A stretch of DNA of 25,667 nt, taken from the IMG/VR virus record IMGVR_UViG_3300010885_004433, positions 1-25,667 of that record. One strand, given 5' to 3'. Made by a program: the position numbers and the translations under genes. Under the pieces are notes generated by a model. The model was not told the origin of the DNA. It made no database searches and saw nothing but the letters and a program-made list of their open reading frames with translations. The stretch is from a virus. The number at the start of each line of letters is the position of its first letter. Position 1 is the stretch's first letter. Below, piece by piece: positions 1,063 to 25,667 of this stretch.

Positions 1063-1092
1063 AGAGCGGCTTTCGGGCCGCTCTTTTCTTTT
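1063..1092 (+). terminator. Intrinsic terminator after gp32
   Basis: A perfect 8-bp stem AGAGCGGC (1063-1070) / GCCGCTCT (1077-1084) encloses the loop TTTCGG and is followed by TTTCTTTT. It lies 30 bp after the gp32 stop. The minus-strand gene ends immediately beyond it (stop at 1091-1093). No T-tract follows the stem in the minus direction, so it should mainly stop plus-strand transcription. Confidence 0.93.
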
Positions 1093-3802
1093 ATGCTGTA
1101 GAACCCGGTGTAGCTCTAGTAAAATGTCCTGTACCTTCTCTTCCAAACTTAGAGCGTGTAATTGCTCTATGGTGTGAAGGAGAATGTTGATATTTTGCAG
1201 ATGTTAAATTATCACGCCAATGAACATCGTTATTCATCACGACATTAGTTTCTCTTGGTGTTGGAGGCGTTTGTTGAAAACTACTCTGGTTTTGTTTAGT
1301 TTGTTCTGAATCTGCGCTATAAGCTGATTTTTCATTATTTGTTACAAGTTCTTCAGCATTTCTTTTTTTATTTGATTCTACTCTCAAACCTGTACCAGAT
1401 TTAGTAATACCATTCTCTACTTCACCTTCATTGATCTTAGCTACCTCATCACCATTCTCATTCACCACAGATAGATTATCTTTCTCAGGAATAAAACCGC
1501 CTTGCGCCATAGTTTGCGCCGGTGGTTGTTCAGGCGGTATAGGTGATGCGGTCTGCGCTGGCACAGGAGTAGGTTCTGCTTGTACTGGCGGCGCCGGTTC
1601 TACAGGTGCTATTGATTGTACCTGATCAGAATCAACTCTACTTAATACATCTCCTGTACCAATACCATCTTTAGCTACAGTTTGTCCATCTTTAATTCTT
1701 GACCCAATACCATTAGCAATGCTATCGCCAACGGCCACAGAACCTGGATATTTTTCAGCTATACGTTTGTATTCTTTGTCACCTGGATGATAACCACCAT
1801 AGCCACTGTAATCTTGTGGTTGTTCTACTGTTGCACCTGATTCGGTCGCTGCTCTTAAGACTTCATTGTGTGCAGGAGTAAAATCTTTACCATCAGCTTC
1901 ACCTTCTCTAGGCGGTACAACAACAACTTTATAACCTTTAGCCTTAGCTTTATTGATTGCGGCAAGAGTATTGTCATATGTCTTGGATGTATCAGCCCAA
2001 TCATTTGTACCCATAGAAATAATCATAGTTCTTTGATTTGTAGGCTCTGCTGAAGTTGGTGATGCAGTAGATTCTTCAGCACCTTGTACAGGTTGTGGTC
2101 CATATTTAACGCCTTCTACTGCGCCAATTTGACTAAGAGTTGGTCCTAATACACCTCTTTCTCCTCCTAAATCAAAATGCATCAGATCAGGAGTTGTGCC
2201 GCCGCTTACTGTACCGAATGCAGCACCATGTGCAAGTTTACCTTTCAATTCAGGATGTCTGGCTTCCATTTCACCATAAACATGTTGTCCAAGTAATTTA
2301 TACATTCCCGTGTCATCAGCACCTTTGTTTGGTATTTCTTTACCGTCTGGGCCAATGATATGAAGATCAATAGCACCTTTGCCTTTTTGCTTGTGTTGTG
2401 ACTTTGATGTGTGTCCAGTTTCCGTATAACCTTCTGAGATATAGACCTTATAGCCTGCAGGCAAATGAGCAGCGCCTGCCGTAACAACTTCGACTAATCT
2501 AGGATCAACATCTTCTAAATCGGCATCTGCTGTTTTATCTAAGGGGATTAAAGTTGTGGTACCTTCTTTGTCTGCAATAGATTGTGAAGATGAAGGCGTT
2601 TCTGTACCATATAAAGTTTTTGTTGCAGCTACAATTCTTCTGCCTTCTTCAGTTTTTATCATATCTAATCTAACTTTGTTGATTTCTTCTGGAGTAGAAG
2701 CATCAGACAATGCTTTAGTGTAGGTTGTTATATCTTCTTGATATGCGGTAACAGCATTTGAAATTCTACCAGGCGCACTAGAAGCTATTTCTGCTTTGCT
2801 TGGTCTTTCAACATATTGAACAAAATCGTGAGCCATTTGTTTAACATCACCAGATGCTAAAGCTTTTTTATATCCACGACTTTCATCAGAACCGCCATAT
2901 TTTGCAGATTCACCTGAACGTTCTAATGCAATCCAATCATATTGAATTTCAGGATCTGTCCAATCAGCATTTTTAGTTTTAGCGTAGTTTTGAAGTCCTT
3001 TAAATCTATTACCTCCCCACTGCATCAAACCAAAATGTTCTGATTTCTTAAAATCTTGAATACTAGTATCAAAACCAGATTCACCTTGAACATTACCAGA
3101 TACGGCAGCAGCTTCTTCTTTAGTGAAACCTCTCTTTTGTAGACCATACATCAAAGATTGTTTCTTTGACATATTTTCAGGAGTAATACCAACTTGATTG
3201 GATTTTGCCTGTTCAATAATTTGTTTATCTGATAATTGAGATGCTTCGGTAGGTTTAACACGAATCATATCTTTGCCATCATTAGCCTTAAACTTTTCAA
3301 AGCCTATTTCAGATAGTTTATCATCAGGCAAAGCTTTTATATAGCTTACTTTATCATCATCGGTTGAGATACCATTAGGTCCTACTGCACTATAAAGACC
3401 ATCAACGTCAATACCTTTTTCAAGTAACTTCTTCTTCATATCATCTGTAGTAGGTGTTGCCGGTGTTCCTTGTGGATGAGCACCTGAATCTAGCTTAGTT
3501 TCTTTAGTATAATAAGGCTTTGCACTACCTTGATCACCGCCACCGACCTGATCATAGTTGCGACCAGCATCCAATAATTTCTTATCTATATTAGATGTTA
3601 TAAAATTGGTAACATCAGGTAATGCCTTTCTGTAATAATCTGGAAAAGCATCAGCCACCTGAAAAGGTGTCAATGAGTTCAGAATAGAATCTAAGAACGC
3701 TTGATTTGTATCAGCCGCTTGTACACGTTGTCCAATTGGTATACTCATTAGTTCAGAAAAATCTATTGTTAGATCGTTAAGTGCTGATGGGTCTATTGCC
3801 AT
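1091..3802 (-). CDS. Tail hub / tape-measure-like protein with lysozyme, M15-like peptidase and permuted SGNH domains
   Basis: This 903-aa protein is the last gene of the minus-strand tail operon. Residues about 205-350 resemble the phage tail lysozyme family (GNVQGESGF with the probable catalytic Glu at 241, then HFGLMQWGGNR). Residues about 430-550 resemble M15 zinc D,D- or L,D-peptidases: SQHKQKGKGAIDL gives His470 and Asp479, and DLMHFDL gives Asp539 and His542. The H-to-D spacing is two residues longer than the usual HxxGxAxD. Residues about 592-725 carry SGNH-hydrolase blocks in permuted order: MGTND (block III), YHP (block V), then VGDSIANG (block I, Ser694). A Pro/Ala linker (about 731-765) leads to GGFIPEKDNLSVVNENGDEV, reminiscent of C-terminal motifs in tape-measure proteins, then a His/Arg-rich end. 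No signal peptide or membrane segment is evident. It probably rides in the tail tip and opens peptidoglycan at injection. Its start overlaps the upstream stop (TAATG). Whether it is the tape measure or a hub enzyme is unresolved. Confidence 0.8.
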   Translation of the reverse strand: MAIDPSALNDLTIDFSELMSIPIGQRVQAADTNQAFLDSILNSLTPFQVADAFPDYYRKALPDVTNFITSNIDKKLLDAGRNYDQVGGGDQGSAKPYYTKETKLDSGAHPQGTPATPTTDDMKKKLLEKGIDVDGLYSAVGPNGISTDDDKVSYIKALPDDKLSEIGFEKFKANDGKDMIRVKPTEASQLSDKQIIEQAKSNQVGITPENMSKKQSLMYGLQKRGFTKEEAAAVSGNVQGESGFDTSIQDFKKSEHFGLMQWGGNRFKGLQNYAKTKNADWTDPEIQYDWIALERSGESAKYGGSDESRGYKKALASGDVKQMAHDFVQYVERPSKAEIASSAPGRISNAVTAYQEDITTYTKALSDASTPEEINKVRLDMIKTEEGRRIVAATKTLYGTETPSSSQSIADKEGTTTLIPLDKTADADLEDVDPRLVEVVTAGAAHLPAGYKVYISEGYTETGHTSKSQHKQKGKGAIDLHIIGPDGKEIPNKGADDTGMYKLLGQHVYGEMEARHPELKGKLAHGAAFGTVSGGTTPDLMHFDLGGERGVLGPTLSQIGAVEGVKYGPQPVQGAEESTASPTSAEPTNQRTMIISMGTNDWADTSKTYDNTLAAINKAKAKGYKVVVVPPREGEADGKDFTPAHNEVLRAATESGATVEQPQDYSGYGGYHPGDKEYKRIAEKYPGSVAVGDSIANGIGSRIKDGQTVAKDGIGTGDVLSRVDSDQVQSIAPVEPAPPVQAEPTPVPAQTASPIPPEQPPAQTMAQGGFIPEKDNLSVVNENGDEVAKINEGEVENGITKSGTGLRVESNKKRNAEELVTNNEKSAYSADSEQTKQNQSSFQQTPPTPRETNVVMNNDVHWRDNLTSAKYQHSPSHHRAITRSKFGREGTGHFTRATPGSTA

Positions 3803-4005
3803 TATCGTTTTCTGTTTCTCTTATTGGCGGCCTCTTGGTCACGCCTATCTTCTTCTTGCTTCTTCAAGTAGTTCGTCAATAAGTCAACATAAACAAATTT
3901 TTCCCATGGTATCATGCCTTCTAGTTCGGTTAGAGAGTATTTGTGGTATTGCATCAATGCAAAATTAGTATTATAATGATTTGTAATACTATCATACCCG
4001 AACAT
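3802..4005 (-). CDS. Overlapping 67-aa ORF, candidate -1 frameshift extension of gp26
   Basis: This 67-aa ORF sits between gp26 and the 903-aa gene and shares one base with each (TAATG junctions at 4005 and 3802). It contains ALMQYHKYSLTELEGMIPWE followed by KFVYVDLLTNYLKKQEE and a very basic tail (KRNRKR). A mid-sized helical protein with a histidine, an S-L-x-E-L run and a P-W-E turn is reminiscent of the short T-type extensions of tail assembly chaperones; this is a by-eye resemblance. It could be translated by termination-reinitiation at TAATG. It could also be made by a -1 slip on the T7 tract at 4011-4017, which leads exactly into this frame and would yield a gp26 fusion of about 308 aa. 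A gp51-like baseplate hub assembly role is the alternative reading, from position only. Confidence 0.7.
   Translation of the reverse strand: MFGYDSITNHYNTNFALMQYHKYSLTELEGMIPWEKFVYVDLLTNYLKKQEEDRRDQEAANKRNRKR
3966..3991 (-). repeat. 8-bp inverted repeat just inside the 67-aa ORF
   Basis: TAGTATTA (3966-3973) and TAATACTA (3984-3991) are perfect complements with a 10-nt loop. In the minus-strand mRNA this hairpin starts 19 nt after the slippery T7 tract. That is longer than the usual spacing for a frameshift stimulator, and the stem is AT-rich, so a role is uncertain. Confidence 0.4.
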
Positions 4006-4727
4006 TATAGAAAAAAATTTATAAAGTCTTTATACCTCACATTATGAACTTTGCCACAGCTTGGGCATGTTTCTTGACCAGTTATGTAGAAATATGGAAA
4101 ATTATCTATAAATTCTTCTAGTTTTTTAAACTGCTCTTGTGTTAGACCTTCAATAAAATTGTTTAGTTCTTCAGGCGTAAAATCTTTGTTAGTATAATAT
4201 TGCCCTTTTGAAAATACTTTATCTATGCAAGCCATGATAACTTTAATTTTAATAGTTAAAGCATCACTCTTATTGTCTAGCATCTTCATAGTATCATATG
4301 ACGGATATTTCATGGTAAATATTAAATCGCTATTAAATTCTATGTCTAATCCAATTTTAGGTCTAGCTATTTCTACATTTAATATATCAAGATTAATGGC
4401 AAAACGACCGCTGCATATATCACCACCATCTAAAGGTTCATTACATTTGAAATTGACTTTAATCGTTTCACCTATTGATTTAGCCCTTAATGCAATAAAC
4501 AAATAATCAATATCAAAGAATGGTAAAGCATTAACGTTTACATCACCACTTACTATACAGTTATTCAGCACTTGCTTAGTGATCTTGATAATCTCTTGCG
4601 GGTCTTTCGTTTGTGCTGCCATTAACAACATTTTTTCTTCTTTAACCAAAAATGGTCTAAACACGACTTCTTTTCCATTAGAAGGTAGTTTCAATTCATA
4701 TGTTGGCACATCAATCTTGGGTATCAT
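4005..4727 (-). CDS. 26: gp26 baseplate hub assembly protein (tail assembly chaperone-like)
   Basis: This 240-aa protein fits the T4 gp26 'T4 base plate protein' family. The N-terminal pattern PTYELKLPSNGKEVVFRPFLVKEEK is characteristic, followed by helical segments and a C-terminal CPSCGKVH (Cys221, Cys224, His228). Together with Cys95 and Cys105 this could form a zinc site. The N-terminal pattern (L-P-S-x-G-K-x-x-x-x-R-P-x-x-x-x-E-E) also resembles tail assembly chaperones of other contractile phages. The start is preceded by AAGGATAA, a good ribosome-binding site. The last sense codons are AAT TTT TTT CTA before TAA, forming an in-frame slippery heptamer. It lies downstream of the tube-like gene and upstream of the tape-measure-like gene, the canonical position of a tail assembly chaperone. 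Confidence 0.82.
   Translation of the reverse strand: MIPKIDVPTYELKLPSNGKEVVFRPFLVKEEKMLLMAAQTKDPQEIIKITKQVLNNCIVSGDVNVNALPFFDIDYLFIALRAKSIGETIKVNFKCNEPLDGGDICSGRFAINLDILNVEIARPKIGLDIEFNSDLIFTMKYPSYDTMKMLDNKSDALTIKIKVIMACIDKVFSKGQYYTNKDFTPEELNNFIEGLTQEQFKKLEEFIDNFPYFYITGQETCPSCGKVHNVRYKDFINFFL
4011..4017 (-). promoter_or_regulatory. Candidate -1 frameshift site (T_TTT_TTT) at the end of gp26
   Basis: In the minus-strand mRNA the gp26 codons AAT TTT TTT CTA TAA contain U_UUU_UUU with phase X_XXY_YYZ, a textbook simultaneous-slippage heptamer. After a -1 slip the next codons are TCT ATA ATG, entering the 67-aa ORF at its own ATG. The fusion would be 239 gp26 residues, Ser-Ile, and the 67 residues. 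The sequence is seen directly; use as a recoding site is inferred from its phase, position and gene context. Confidence 0.6.
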
Positions 4728-6030: not shown

Positions 6031-6468
6031 TTACTTAATACCTAAATGATCCTCAGTGATAAGCTTAAAGGCCCAGCCTCTATCAAGGCAGTATTCAGTA
6101 GCAGCTTTCCACTTCGCCTGGTTCTTCCCCCATGTCATTACCTCAGTAAGGTACTTTCTAGTTCTCTTACTCTGTACCTTAGGCTCCATGGTCTCCTTCT
6201 TAGGTTTTACCTCTAGTATCATGGTCTGAGTAGAACCATCTTTCATTCTAGCTTCCACAATAAAGTCTGGATAGTACCTATGTCTGCGGCTGTCTGTAGG
6301 GCATATATAGGGTATTATTAGTTCTTCTGATCCCCATGCCATGATGGCCGTATTCTCATCTAAATACTTCATGACTCTAAGTTCCCATAACGAACGATAG
6401 ATTATGTTCGTCGGGTCACCTTTGTATTTCTTTGGGTTCTTTGGAGAAAACTTACCTTTATATGCCAT
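6031..6468 (-). CDS. 4: gp4 head completion nuclease
   Basis: This 145-aa protein matches T4 gp4 (gp50/gp4, about 150 aa), needed to finish DNA-filled heads before tail attachment. The N-terminus KGKFSPKNPKKYKGDPT and the YRSLWELRVMKYLD helix are family hallmarks. The fold is the TnsA-like PD-(D/E)xK nuclease: Glu29 in the WEL helix, Asp68 in YYPDF, then Glu86 and Lys88 in ILEVKPKKE. The full catalytic set appears intact. The gene stands apart from the downstream tail operon by 72 bp and is divergent from gp48 across a 31-bp gap. No strong minus-strand promoter is visible upstream; TATATATT close to the start may serve. Codon use is mixed and unremarkable. Confidence 0.92.
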   Translation of the reverse strand: MAYKGKFSPKNPKKYKGDPTNIIYRSLWELRVMKYLDENTAIMAWGSEELIIPYICPTDSRRHRYYPDFIVEARMKDGSTQTMILEVKPKKETMEPKVQSKRTRKYLTEVMTWGKNQAKWKAATEYCLDRGWAFKLITEDHLGIK

Positions 6469-21257: not shown

Positions 21258-24200
21258 ATGGCAATAACAATCTCAAAAATAACAACTCCGACAACAATAG
21301 TTGCACCAACTACAACTGCGGTCACACAATCAAGTAGTATTGTAACAAGTCAGCCTGTGTCAATTCCTGCTGCGGCGCCAACCACAGCGCCAACTCAGAC
21401 ATTGCAACAAAATGCTCAGATTGTTACTAATACAACCACCGTGGATACAGTTCTTGGTAGTGTCATAACTTCCGTATCAATTATTCCTTATATGAGATAT
21501 TTGCCAATAGATTTTATTGGTTATAGAATGAGACCTAATCGTCAAGTTTGGTTTTACTTTGATGACAAGTCCGTAGATAATCTTATTCAAAATCCAAATA
21601 TTATTGAAGTAAATACCACCTCTACAGTAAATGACATAAGAAGTGGCCCACAAAGAACTATTCGTGTAGGCAGTTCAACCGCTAGAATTCTACATGTAGA
21701 AAGAAATAGTACTAGTGGAAATGCTGTGTTCTATATTTCCGAATTTACATCCCCAGCTGCGCTTACAGTTGGTGACTCTATTACAGTAGATGGTTTATCT
21801 TATACAACCACACTTAAATCATACAGCCACTGCTCAGGTAAAGTTCAAGTTGGTTCAAGTAATACTACAATAAAGATGACATTAGATGCAAACAGAACAA
21901 CAGATGACTATTATTTTGGTAATACTATTATAATTGTTAATGGTACAAATGCTGGTCAATCAGCAGAAATTGTTTCATATAATTGCCTAAACAGACTTGC
22001 TACTGTTCAACCCGCATTACAACTTAGTTCAACAGAAAGTAATTTGATTTATACAATTGGAGATTATAGAAGTTGGTATTCAGCCGATACTTTCCCTGCT
22101 TCATACATAACAGAGCGTGGACTTGTATCTGGTGTATTTCATGTTCCAGATCCAAATAAAAATCCAAAATTGGCTGTAAGAACAGGTGATAGACTTCTTC
22201 GTATTCTTGATAATCCAAGAAATGATACTGGATCATATACAACAAGAGCAGACTATAGATTTACATCTAACGGTTTAGATACTTCAGTTGCACAAATAAT
22301 TGAACGTGATATTATTACAGATTTTCCTATAGTTGTACCGCCTACACCTACACCATCTACAACTAAAACAATGACTCCAACACCTACACCAACATCTTCG
22401 ACTCCGGTGACTCCAACACCTACTCCTACTCCTACAAGAACACCAACACCGACACCTTCAAATATTATAAAAGATCCTTGTGCAGGTGTAGAATGGCCAT
22501 TAGCCACTACAGTAACTTTAAGTTGGACTGTGGCTCCTCCTGGTAGAAAATCATTGAGTCAGACAACAACTGAAGGAACTAATTCAGCTTTAGATTCTTT
22601 CTATAAGAATGCATCAATTGCTTCTGTTGCACGATTGATATATACGAATAAATCCGGTGTTCCTATTTTAGGGGCCCCTAATATATCACAAGATATATCT
22701 GTAATTGTAAATACTCACAGTGCTAAAAAACCTTTACCATGGCGTATTCCTTTTGAAACAACAACACCAGCAGGCGCAAGATTTCTAACACCTACAGATC
22801 CTGATGGTAGAACATATATCAAACATTTTAGAGCATTGCCCGGCAATTATTCTGGCGCAGGCGACCAACTTACCAATGTACCGATTGATGTTACAGGAGT
22901 ATATTTTTGGCAATTAATGTATGATATAAATCAACCAGGAGCATGTATTAAAATTCCGCATGATCCTACAGCACAATCATTTTATATTGCAGCTACAGAA
23001 CATCCAGATGGTGTATTCATTTCATCAGTCGATCTTTTCTTCAAGAATAAAGGCGAATCTCTTCCTGTTGAAGTTCAAATTCGTCCTATTGTTAATGGTA
23101 ATCCAAGTAGTAATACATTGATACCTGGTGCAACTACTACAATGGAAACCGAAGATATCAAGGTATCTAATTTTCCTGATGCTGCTAATGTAAGCACTAA
23201 TACTCGATTTACATTCCCAAGCCCAGTATATCTAAACTCAGGATACGAATATGCAATCGTTGTAATCACTGATGATTATGGTTATGATTATTATGGTGCA
23301 GCAAAAGGCGAGACAATAATTGGTACTGATAGAGTTGTATCACAACAGCCATTCTTAGGTTCTCTATTCAAGTCTCAAAATCAAATGACATGGACACCTA
23401 TTCAAGATGAAGATATGATGTTTGTTCTAAACAAGGCATCATTTAATACTACAGAAGGCACTGTAATATTTGAAGAAGATAAAAATGCATTATTTTATGA
23501 AGTATCTTCAAATGTTGCATATAATGGATTTGATAGTAACAAATCAAATACATATTACGATTCTTTTGAGTTAAGATCAGATGCCATTGAGTTTAATAGA
23601 ACAAAACTTAATTATTATATAAAAGGTGTACCTAATTCTAGCTTAACATTGTCATCTGCATATACTAACTTTAAACCTGATAGTAGATTTGATCTAACTG
23701 ATAGAAACATTCTATTTAATCCAGAATTACAAAATAAATCTATGTTGATGAGAGTTGATTTATCGACACAAAATAAAGATGTTTCGCCAATTTTATATCA
23801 TGAACGCCAAAATATGGTAACAATTGAAAACTTGATTAATGATACAGGATTAACAGAAGATAGATACATCATTTCTGATCCTGGTTCATCATATACAACA
23901 AATGCTTATGTTACTATTACAAGTGAAAATGGTTATGGCGCCAATGCTTGGGCAGTAGCTAATGCTACAACAGGTAACATTGTTGCCATTAAAGTTGATA
24001 GTGTTGGTGTAGGTTATGTTGATGATGTAACAATAACGATTGGCGGAGGCGGTGGCACAGGTGCTACTGTTAATGTATCAACCGAAACTGGTTCATCTGG
24101 TGGTCCAGCTATAGCACGTTATATTTCAAAGACAGTAACACTACTTGATGGATTTGATGCCGGCGATCTTAGATTACTATTAACAGCAGTAAAACCACCA

Positions 24201-24512
24201 GGTTCAAATGTTAACGTATATTATAAAGTACGTAATTCTCTTGATCCAGAACGCATTGAAAATCGTAACTGGAAGCGCATGAATATGAAGACTAGTTCTT
24301 ACACATTCTCAGTGAATAGAAATCCTATTGAATATGAATATAGACCATCAATGTCTTCTAATAATATTACATATACAACTGATACCACAACATATAAAAC
24401 ATTCAATCAGTTTGCAATTAAAATTGTTCTATCTTCTCCAAATACAGTAGCAAATGCAATTCCTTATGTTCTAGATGTAAGAGCCATTGCATTGCCTGGA
24501 GATGTGTATTAA
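21258..24512 (+). CDS. Large baseplate/tail structural protein with Pro-Thr linker
   Basis: This 1084-aa protein follows the DUF4815 gene. The N-terminus (1-65) is low-complexity Thr/Pro/Ala/Gln, then VSIIPYMRYLPIDFIGYRMR and PNRQVWFYFDD. A Pro-Thr linker (about 361-400) separates an N-terminal beta region from the main body. The main body contains DPTAQSFYIAATEHPDGVFI, SSVDLFFKNKGESLPVEVQI, and YLNSGYEYAIVVITDDYGYD, then MTWTPIQDEDMMFVLNKASF. I know this combination from large virion proteins adjacent to DUF4815 in related phages. Near the C-terminus (about 869-945) is a glycine-rich beta module (DPGSSYTTNAYVTITSENGY, then IGGGGGTGATVNV). No catalytic motif is seen. Probably a peripheral baseplate or fibre-network protein. 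It overlaps the next gene by one base. Confidence 0.78.
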   Translation: MAITISKITTPTTIVAPTTTAVTQSSSIVTSQPVSIPAAAPTTAPTQTLQQNAQIVTNTTTVDTVLGSVITSVSIIPYMRYLPIDFIGYRMRPNRQVWFYFDDKSVDNLIQNPNIIEVNTTSTVNDIRSGPQRTIRVGSSTARILHVERNSTSGNAVFYISEFTSPAALTVGDSITVDGLSYTTTLKSYSHCSGKVQVGSSNTTIKMTLDANRTTDDYYFGNTIIIVNGTNAGQSAEIVSYNCLNRLATVQPALQLSSTESNLIYTIGDYRSWYSADTFPASYITERGLVSGVFHVPDPNKNPKLAVRTGDRLLRILDNPRNDTGSYTTRADYRFTSNGLDTSVAQIIERDIITDFPIVVPPTPTPSTTKTMTPTPTPTSSTPVTPTPTPTPTRTPTPTPSNIIKDPCAGVEWPLATTVTLSWTVAPPGRKSLSQTTTEGTNSALDSFYKNASIASVARLIYTNKSGVPILGAPNISQDISVIVNTHSAKKPLPWRIPFETTTPAGARFLTPTDPDGRTYIKHFRALPGNYSGAGDQLTNVPIDVTGVYFWQLMYDINQPGACIKIPHDPTAQSFYIAATEHPDGVFISSVDLFFKNKGESLPVEVQIRPIVNGNPSSNTLIPGATTTMETEDIKVSNFPDAANVSTNTRFTFPSPVYLNSGYEYAIVVITDDYGYDYYGAAKGETIIGTDRVVSQQPFLGSLFKSQNQMTWTPIQDEDMMFVLNKASFNTTEGTVIFEEDKNALFYEVSSNVAYNGFDSNKSNTYYDSFELRSDAIEFNRTKLNYYIKGVPNSSLTLSSAYTNFKPDSRFDLTDRNILFNPELQNKSMLMRVDLSTQNKDVSPILYHERQNMVTIENLINDTGLTEDRYIISDPGSSYTTNAYVTITSENGYGANAWAVANATTGNIVAIKVDSVGVGYVDDVTITIGGGGGTGATVNVSTETGSSGGPAIARYISKTVTLLDGFDAGDLRLLLTAVKPPGSNVNVYYKVRNSLDPERIENRNWKRMNMKTSSYTFSVNRNPIEYEYRPSMSSNNITYTTDTTTYKTFNQFAIKIVLSSPNTVANAIPYVLDVRAIALPGDVY
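22338..22460 (+). repeat. Pro-Thr codon repeat (linker) in the 1084-aa gene
   Basis: A near-microsatellite run of CCT/CCA/CCG and ACA/ACT/ACC codons encodes about 41 residues, largely alternating Pro and Thr (for example PTPTPTPTPTRTPTPTPS). This is an extended, disordered spacer between folded domains. The opposite strand shows a Gly-Val open frame that is only its shadow. Confidence 0.9.
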
Positions 24513-24752: not shown

Positions 24753-25667
24753 ATGGCTATTGCAAACGTTACGCTAAACAATACATTTGATGAATGGCGC
24801 ACAGTAACAAACCAGGTGATTTCGTTTGTAAATGAAGTCGATACTTTGCAACTTTTCAATGTTGCTTCTAATTCTGCTGTTCTTACTACTACATCAAGAA
24901 TTGCAAGAAATCAAACAGTATATCTTAGTTTAAATGTTTCTAGTAGTGTATTAGATACTTCTACATTAAATGTTGCCACAGCAAATGCTGTTAATGTTGT
25001 TTTCAATTCTTTAGCTAATACAGATGCTAGATTAGTTCTAGTTTCAAATGGTGCAAATACAATAAACGCCGTTTCAATTGCAGGAATTATTCAAGCTAAT
25101 ACAGCCAGAAATGTTGCTAATCAGGCCTTTGCTAAAGCCAATACAGCAAACATTACTGCTGACATAGCATTCGGTAATGCTAACCAAGCCTTTTCTCTAG
25201 CTAACACCGCAAACATTACGGCTGATAGAGCTTGGAACCATGCTAATGCAGCCTTTGCAAATGCCAATACTATTATGGCAACTGCACAGTCTGCATTTAC
25301 TAAGGCTAACACCGCAAATATTACGGCTGACATAGCATTCGGTGTTGCTAATCAGGCTTTCTTTAAGGCTAATACTGCAAATATCACTGCTGACATAGCT
25401 TTTGGTAATGCTAACCAAGCTTTCTCTAAGGCTAATACTGCAAATATCACTGCTGATATAGCATTCGGTGTTGCTAATCAGGCTTTCTCTAAGGCTAATA
25501 CTGCTAACATTACCGCAGATAGAGCCTGGAACCATGCCAACTCTGCTTTTGCTAATGCTAATACCATCATGGTCTCGGCGCAATCCGCCTTTACACAAGC
25601 CAATATTTCTTTTGCTTTAGCTAACACCGCTAATATAACTGCCGATAGAGCCTGGAACCATGCCAAT
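24753..25667 (+). CDS. Heptad-repeat tail fibre protein (3' end outside window)
   Basis: The frame is open from ATG 24753 to the window end (305 codons, no stop). It begins MAIANVTLNNTFDEWRTVTN, a start I associate with tail fibre proteins in this phage group: a short N-terminal domain with the TFDEWR pattern, then coiled rod. Residues 1-114 are beta/mixed. From residue 115 it is a rod of alanine-rich heptads such as AFSKANT, ANITADI and AFGVANQ, with Ala or small residues at heptad core positions. Larger repeat units are 21, 35 and 42 residues, all multiples of seven. It probably forms a trimeric alpha-helical stalk, with a receptor-binding tip expected beyond the window. The start is preceded by AGAGGA at about 15 nt, a distant ribosome-binding site, and follows the upstream stop by one base. 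Confidence 0.85.
   Translation, partial: MAIANVTLNNTFDEWRTVTNQVISFVNEVDTLQLFNVASNSAVLTTTSRIARNQTVYLSLNVSSSVLDTSTLNVATANAVNVVFNSLANTDARLVLVSNGANTINAVSIAGIIQANTARNVANQAFAKANTANITADIAFGNANQAFSLANTANITADRAWNHANAAFANANTIMATAQSAFTKANTANITADIAFGVANQAFFKANTANITADIAFGNANQAFSKANTANITADIAFGVANQAFSKANTANITADRAWNHANSAFANANTIMVSAQSAFTQANISFALANTANITADRAWNHAN
25095..25667 (+). repeat. Tandem in-frame 63/105/126-bp fibre repeats
   Basis: After two introductory heptads (25095-25136), units beginning with the codons for ANTANITAD start at 25137, 25200, 25305, 25368, 25431, 25494 and 25620. Units are 63, 105, 63, 63, 63 and 126 bp, and the last is cut by the window edge. Two unit classes alternate: an IAFG(N/V)ANQAF form and an RAWNHAN form with an extra ANTIM stretch. 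Neighbouring 63-bp units are close to identical at DNA level, indicating recent duplication. Confidence 0.92.

Follow-up and report, generated by a model that had tools for sequence, protein, structure and literature searches.

The tail assembly chaperones of T4-like phages were reportedly identified by Vladimirov, Gautam and Davidson in 2022 (Virology 566:9-15). Passages of two papers that cite this work state that poly-T signals for -1 frameshifting are known in the TAC-N genes of T4-like phages (PMC12846349) and that some T4-like phages have separate genes for the short and the long chaperone (PMC10885494). In phage lambda, the short chaperone G and the long form GT, extended by a -1 frameshift, act on the tape measure protein (PMC5009743). 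A 2016 review described G-T frameshifting as widely conserved 'except T4' (PMC5009743). The chaperone loci of Vandenendeviridae and Andersonviridae, including phage Adele, have likewise been described as having a poly-T motif close to the 3' end of TAC-N at which -1 frameshifting is conserved (PMC12846349). The locus described here lies in a stretch of 25,667 nucleotides of viral DNA (the window), which gave no match in a megablast search against phage records. As far as the citing papers describe them, the T4-like chaperones of Vladimirov et al. belong to the same gene family and follow the same short/long strategy as those of the window. Whereas the motif of the Vandenendeviridae and Andersonviridae is GTTTTT, that of the window and its relatives is TTTTTT[T/C]. 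The initial annotation of this locus knew of no description of frameshifting for the T4 gp26 family; judging from the citing papers, it had already been described for T4-like phages by Vladimirov et al. in 2022. The principle of the frameshift is already published, and the window adds an undescribed member.

The gp26-like gene of the window occupies 4005-4727 on the minus strand and encodes the 240-residue short form (TAC-N), with matches to PF12322 (E 2.6e-59) and phrog_150 (E 1e-58). At its 3' end the minus strand reads ATA AAT TTT TTT CTA TAA TG. The last Phe-Phe of gp26 is thus encoded within an in-phase slippery heptamer T_TTT_TTT (4017-4011), as the initial annotation had noticed, and the zero-frame stop TAA (4005-4007), which ends the short form, overlaps the ATG of a 67-aa ORF on the same strand (3802-4005) as TAATG. 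The -1 frame is open from 4029 through this ORF to 3802 and overlaps gp26 by 22 nt, a stretch that contains the heptamer. Since the -1 frame is open only from 4029, a slip must fall in the last 22 nt before the gp26 stop. Shifted reading would give NFF-S-I-M-FGYD at the junction, and the computed fusion (TAC-NC, 3802-4727) has 239 + 2 + 67 = 308 aa and a mass of 35.9 kDa, the length first predicted. The tryptic peptide across the junction is predicted to be DFINFFSIMFGYDSITNHYNTNFALMQYHK. We propose that gp26 makes a short and a long tail chaperone by programmed -1 frameshifting on T_TTT_TTT, and on the comparative evidence we assign this reading a probability of about 0.92.

The heptamer by itself is only suggestive, because in-frame X_XXY_YYZ heptamers occur 33 times in the 8,129 codons of the window, or about once per 250 codons; its significance derives from conservation in relatives. 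Could the T run be a chance product of low G+C content and a conserved Phe-Phe? The window has 36% G+C, and the Phe-Phe is conserved at the same place in T4 gp26, which would fit such an origin. Against it, T4-type gp26 codes the pair as TTC TTT, 11 of the 12 Phe-Phe pairs in the genes of the window begin with TTC, the one that begins with TTT being the slippery site, and the codon preceding Phe-Phe ends in T in all 93 related junctions analysed. We give this explanation a negligible probability; the heptamer at the gp26 end is not a chance feature of the window. TTT makes up 242 of the 325 Phe codons in the window (74%), and the prevalence of TTC at the first position of Phe-Phe pairs despite this preference suggests that T runs are avoided outside the frameshift site.

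Two scans of viral contigs yielded 124 loci with 96 distinct junctions, of which 93 were analysed in detail; the junctions are related by descent, and their counts are not independent trials. The question raised with the initial annotation was whether a heptamer in this phase and an overlapping -1 ORF are conserved. The small ORF was in the -1 frame in 96/96 distinct junctions. The conserved -1 frame alone was not counted as evidence, since overlaps of the types TAATG and ATGA produce it as well. The heptamer was in phase in 93/93 junctions, being T_TTT_TTT in 57 and T_TTT_TTC in 36. In each of the 93, TTTTTT[T/C] coincided exactly with the final two positions of the gp26 profile, with the shift point inside the open -1 frame. 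Among Phe-Phe pairs elsewhere in the loci of the relatives, 208 of 393 begin with TTT, and the heptamer with its overlap is conserved beyond the expectation from codon use (93/93 vs 208/393).

The same slippery arrangement is found in isolated phages of the Kyanoviridae and Pootjesviridae, in some Straboviridae (Aeromonas 65, PX29, Vibrio phi-Grn1 and V05) and in unclassified phages. Besides these four Straboviridae, the annotated phages with the arrangement are P-SSM2, Mosig, Melnitz, S-SZBM1, P-HM2, S-CAM22, Pseudomonas pf16, SRB7757, Variovorax V45v66, Stenotrophomonas Yut3, phiM12 and the rhizobial phages Rhizobium P10VF and RHph_I1_9 and Sinorhizobium phiM9. In P10VF, RHph_I1_9 and phiM9 the heptamer is T_TTT_TTG.

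Several variants of the site were also seen. One locus besides the 93 (L074) has G_TTT_TTT at the 3' end of gp26, and Vibrio phage BX-1 (Ackermannviridae; L145, around 3660-3675), which carries a gp26 relative, has C_GTT_TTT; both resemble the GTTTTT motif reported for Vandenendeviridae. In L032-L037 gp26 ends with nine T's, which form two consecutive in-phase heptamers before the stop. In L013, L014, L087, L089, L103 and L128 the zero-frame stop is reached about 25 nt 3' of the heptamer, so the short form gains about eight residues, read in another frame over the sequence that codes for the C-domain.

The overlap of stop and start codon raises the alternative that these are two separate genes and that the 67-aa protein is made alone, by re-initiation at TAATG through translational coupling. 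An ATG lies at or adjoining the gp26 stop in the window and in most of the relatives nearest to it. Of the 93 relatives, 31 have an ATG in frame ahead of the conserved domain; in 26 of these the ATG is at +2. Public records also annotate gp51 as a separate gene; their annotation of the small ORF varies, and in P-HM2 it begins at an internal codon 90 nt past the gp26 stop. In 53 of the 93 junctions, however, the small ORF has no ATG, GTG or TTG upstream of the conserved domain, which means that the domain could hardly be made there except via a change of frame. Re-initiation would also leave the conserved T tract without a role, no Shine-Dalgarno (SD) sequence is found at a normal distance from the ATG of the window, and in T4 the C-domain is fused to the N-domain. 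We consider re-initiation unlikely, at odds of a few percent. The conservation of the heptamer, the -1 phase and the missing start codons together lend comparative support to the -1 recoding of gp26 that the initial annotation had suspected.

Genes 26 and 51 of T4 provide a natural control. PF12322 and phrog_150 are matched by T4 gp26 (208 aa) as well as by gp51 (249 aa); the additional C-terminal part, which the 67-aa ORF matches, is present in gp51 alone. The ORF itself (TAC-C) matches phrog_634 (E 2e-23) and columns 238-280 of phrog_150, and its own profile matches T4 gp51 (E 9e-6), making it homologous to the gp51 C-terminus. T4 gp26 thus resembles the short form of the window, and gp51 combines the N-domain with the C-domain that the window holds in its -1 ORF. 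In T4, however, the two are separate genes on opposite strands and gene 26 ends without a slippery tract, whereas the window has one recoded locus. In phages with two genes, the Phe-Phe at the end of gp26 is either encoded by TTC TTT or lost, and the T tract was kept in none of the readable two-gene (T4-type) relatives checked. The loss of the tract where the genes are split indicates that it persists only in loci with the C-domain in the -1 frame. Synonymous interruption of the T tract, which had been named at the outset as counting against recoding, was found only in these T4-type phages, where the C-domain resides in the separate gene 51.

Because T4 gp51 consists of the N-domain plus the small C-domain, and the tract is lost in the split genes, we equate the predicted frameshift product of the window with T4 gp51, and the short/long pair with lambda gpG/gpGT. 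The likeness to lambda, drawn from the description of its proteins and not from direct comparison, lies in a short form plus a -1-extended long form; the window differs in its site, T_TTT_TTT, and in its C-domain of about 67 aa. The 67-aa ORF had been seen as an overlapping extension of gp26. Its fusion through the -1 frame agrees with the comparative data, and the extension is not an unknown one but the C-terminal domain of T4 gp51. Sullivan et al. (2010) noted that gp51 of cyanophages is about 20% as long as other gp51 proteins and resembles their C-terminal region (PMC3037559); recoding would account for this short gp51.

What, then, would assist slippage at this site? Tested in E. coli constructs, U_UUU_UUU shifts less readily than A_AAA_AAG, and -1 shifting in dnaX is promoted by both an SD sequence and a stem-loop (PMC5009743). 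Across the junctions, the pairing energy with the 3' end of 16S rRNA dipped sharply about 7 nt 5' of the heptamer, to a mean of -6.1 as compared with +0.5 elsewhere in gp26. About 73% of the junctions were below -4 at this SD-like position, and about a quarter had no strong element, including the nearby group L045-L050. Part of the signal reflects a conserved Leu-Glu-Gly. Even so, Glu was coded by GAG in 45 of 60 cases (75%) at the SD-like site and in 486 of 1,943 (25%) elsewhere, an excess that appears to reflect selection on the nucleotides. In the clade of the window the element is GTGAGG (4035-4040, minus strand), located 17 nt 5' of the heptamer as opposed to about 9 nt in most junctions and just outside the interval 3998-4030 that was first marked, which includes the slippery site. 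Its duplex energy with the 16S 3' end is -6.9 in the window, a stronger pairing than the -6.2 elsewhere in gp26. All seven close relatives with GTGAGG use AGG as the Arg codon here, whereas AGG is rare elsewhere (6/63). From its sequence, this upstream element is a candidate stimulator of slippage in the window.

Conserved RNA structure downstream of the heptamer was not found: the mean folding energy of the following 50 nt was no different from that at control positions (window z -0.63), and such structure was rejected as a general stimulator. Stable stems 3' of the heptamer were seen in the individual relatives L018, L063 and L085.

The upstream element also bears on whether the fusion might arise from slippage of RNA polymerase on the T run instead of the ribosome. 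Homopolymer T runs can slip, and the nine T's of L032-L037 would be candidates; most tracts, however, have just six or seven T's, and an SD-like element at fixed spacing together with the codon bias points to a ribosomal event. We hold polymerase slippage to be very improbable, slightly more so than re-initiation, and retain ribosomal frameshifting as the preferred reading.

The chaperone role is assigned by family and by analogy. The model of gp26 (pLDDT 93) aligned with the uncharacterised Bacillus protein 3fgx (Z 8.2) and, through its N-terminal half, with the HK97 tail assembly chaperone 2ob9 (VIA-align Z 7.5 over 80 residues), both above unrelated rows. Foldseek of the model against the PDB gave no significant match (E 1.5), so that the HK97 chaperone emerged only with VIA-align, and a sequence search of solved structures with gp26 gave none. 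Directly after the chaperone locus, where a tape measure gene is expected, lies a 903-aa ORF (1091-3802, minus strand) with a Phage_lysozyme2 domain (PF18013, E 1.3e-22). Its match to the tape-measure family phrog_9570 (E 1e-10) probably runs through the lysozyme region, and the downstream ORFs showed no similarity to T4 gp29 when profiles were compared. In phiM12 and phi-Grn1 the large ORF after the chaperone locus matches tape-measure families. By position, the 903-aa ORF is a candidate tape measure protein with a cell-wall-cutting domain.

Some further features of the window were recorded. Within the 903-aa ORF the Phage_lysozyme2 domain spans residues 218-355, and more hydrolase-like regions are possibly present. 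A head closure protein (gp4-like, phrog_218; 6031-6468, minus strand) has a further match to PF08722 (E 3e-21), the N-terminal family of Tn7 TnsA-like endonucleases. On the plus strand, a structural ORF of 1084 aa (21258-24512) has a Pro-Thr repeat stretch (TPTPTPTPTRTPTPTPS) in mid-protein, and an ORF running off the window end (24753-25667), with many ANTANITAD..AWNHAN repeats, is probably a tail fibre.

Based on these comparisons, we suggest how the locus would operate. Gene 26 would encode the tail assembly chaperone, and most ribosomes would end at the TAA and release the 240-aa short form. A fraction of ribosomes, at whatever rate slippage takes place, would move back by one nucleotide at T_TTT_TTT, where both Phe-tRNAs would pair anew with TTT TTT, and the SD-like sequence upstream would probably aid the slip. 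The shifted ribosomes would read 69 more codons to give the 308-aa long form, with a C-domain that has its match at the end of T4 gp51. If the pair works like lambda gpG/gpGT, coating of the tape measure protein would fall to the short form and recruitment of the tail tube subunit to the long form. We also advance, tentatively and as a possibility that we judge to have less than even odds, that in single-gene T4-like chaperones the frameshift is tuned by an SD-like element under nucleotide-level selection, that the spacing of each lineage (about 9 nt in most, 17 nt in the clade of the window) sets the ratio of short to long form, and that two genes took over in the T4 branch. The upstream element is perhaps less widely known than the recoding itself.

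The gain from these results lies mainly in annotation, in a wide data set and in an upstream stimulator that can be tested. A strong comparative case can be made that what marine T4-like phages carry as a short orphan 'gp51' is gp26's frameshifted tail and not a separate gene, and the two should be annotated as one recoded gene. The same chaperone pair would thus be reached by two routes, recoding in most of the T4-like lineages examined and two genes in T4.
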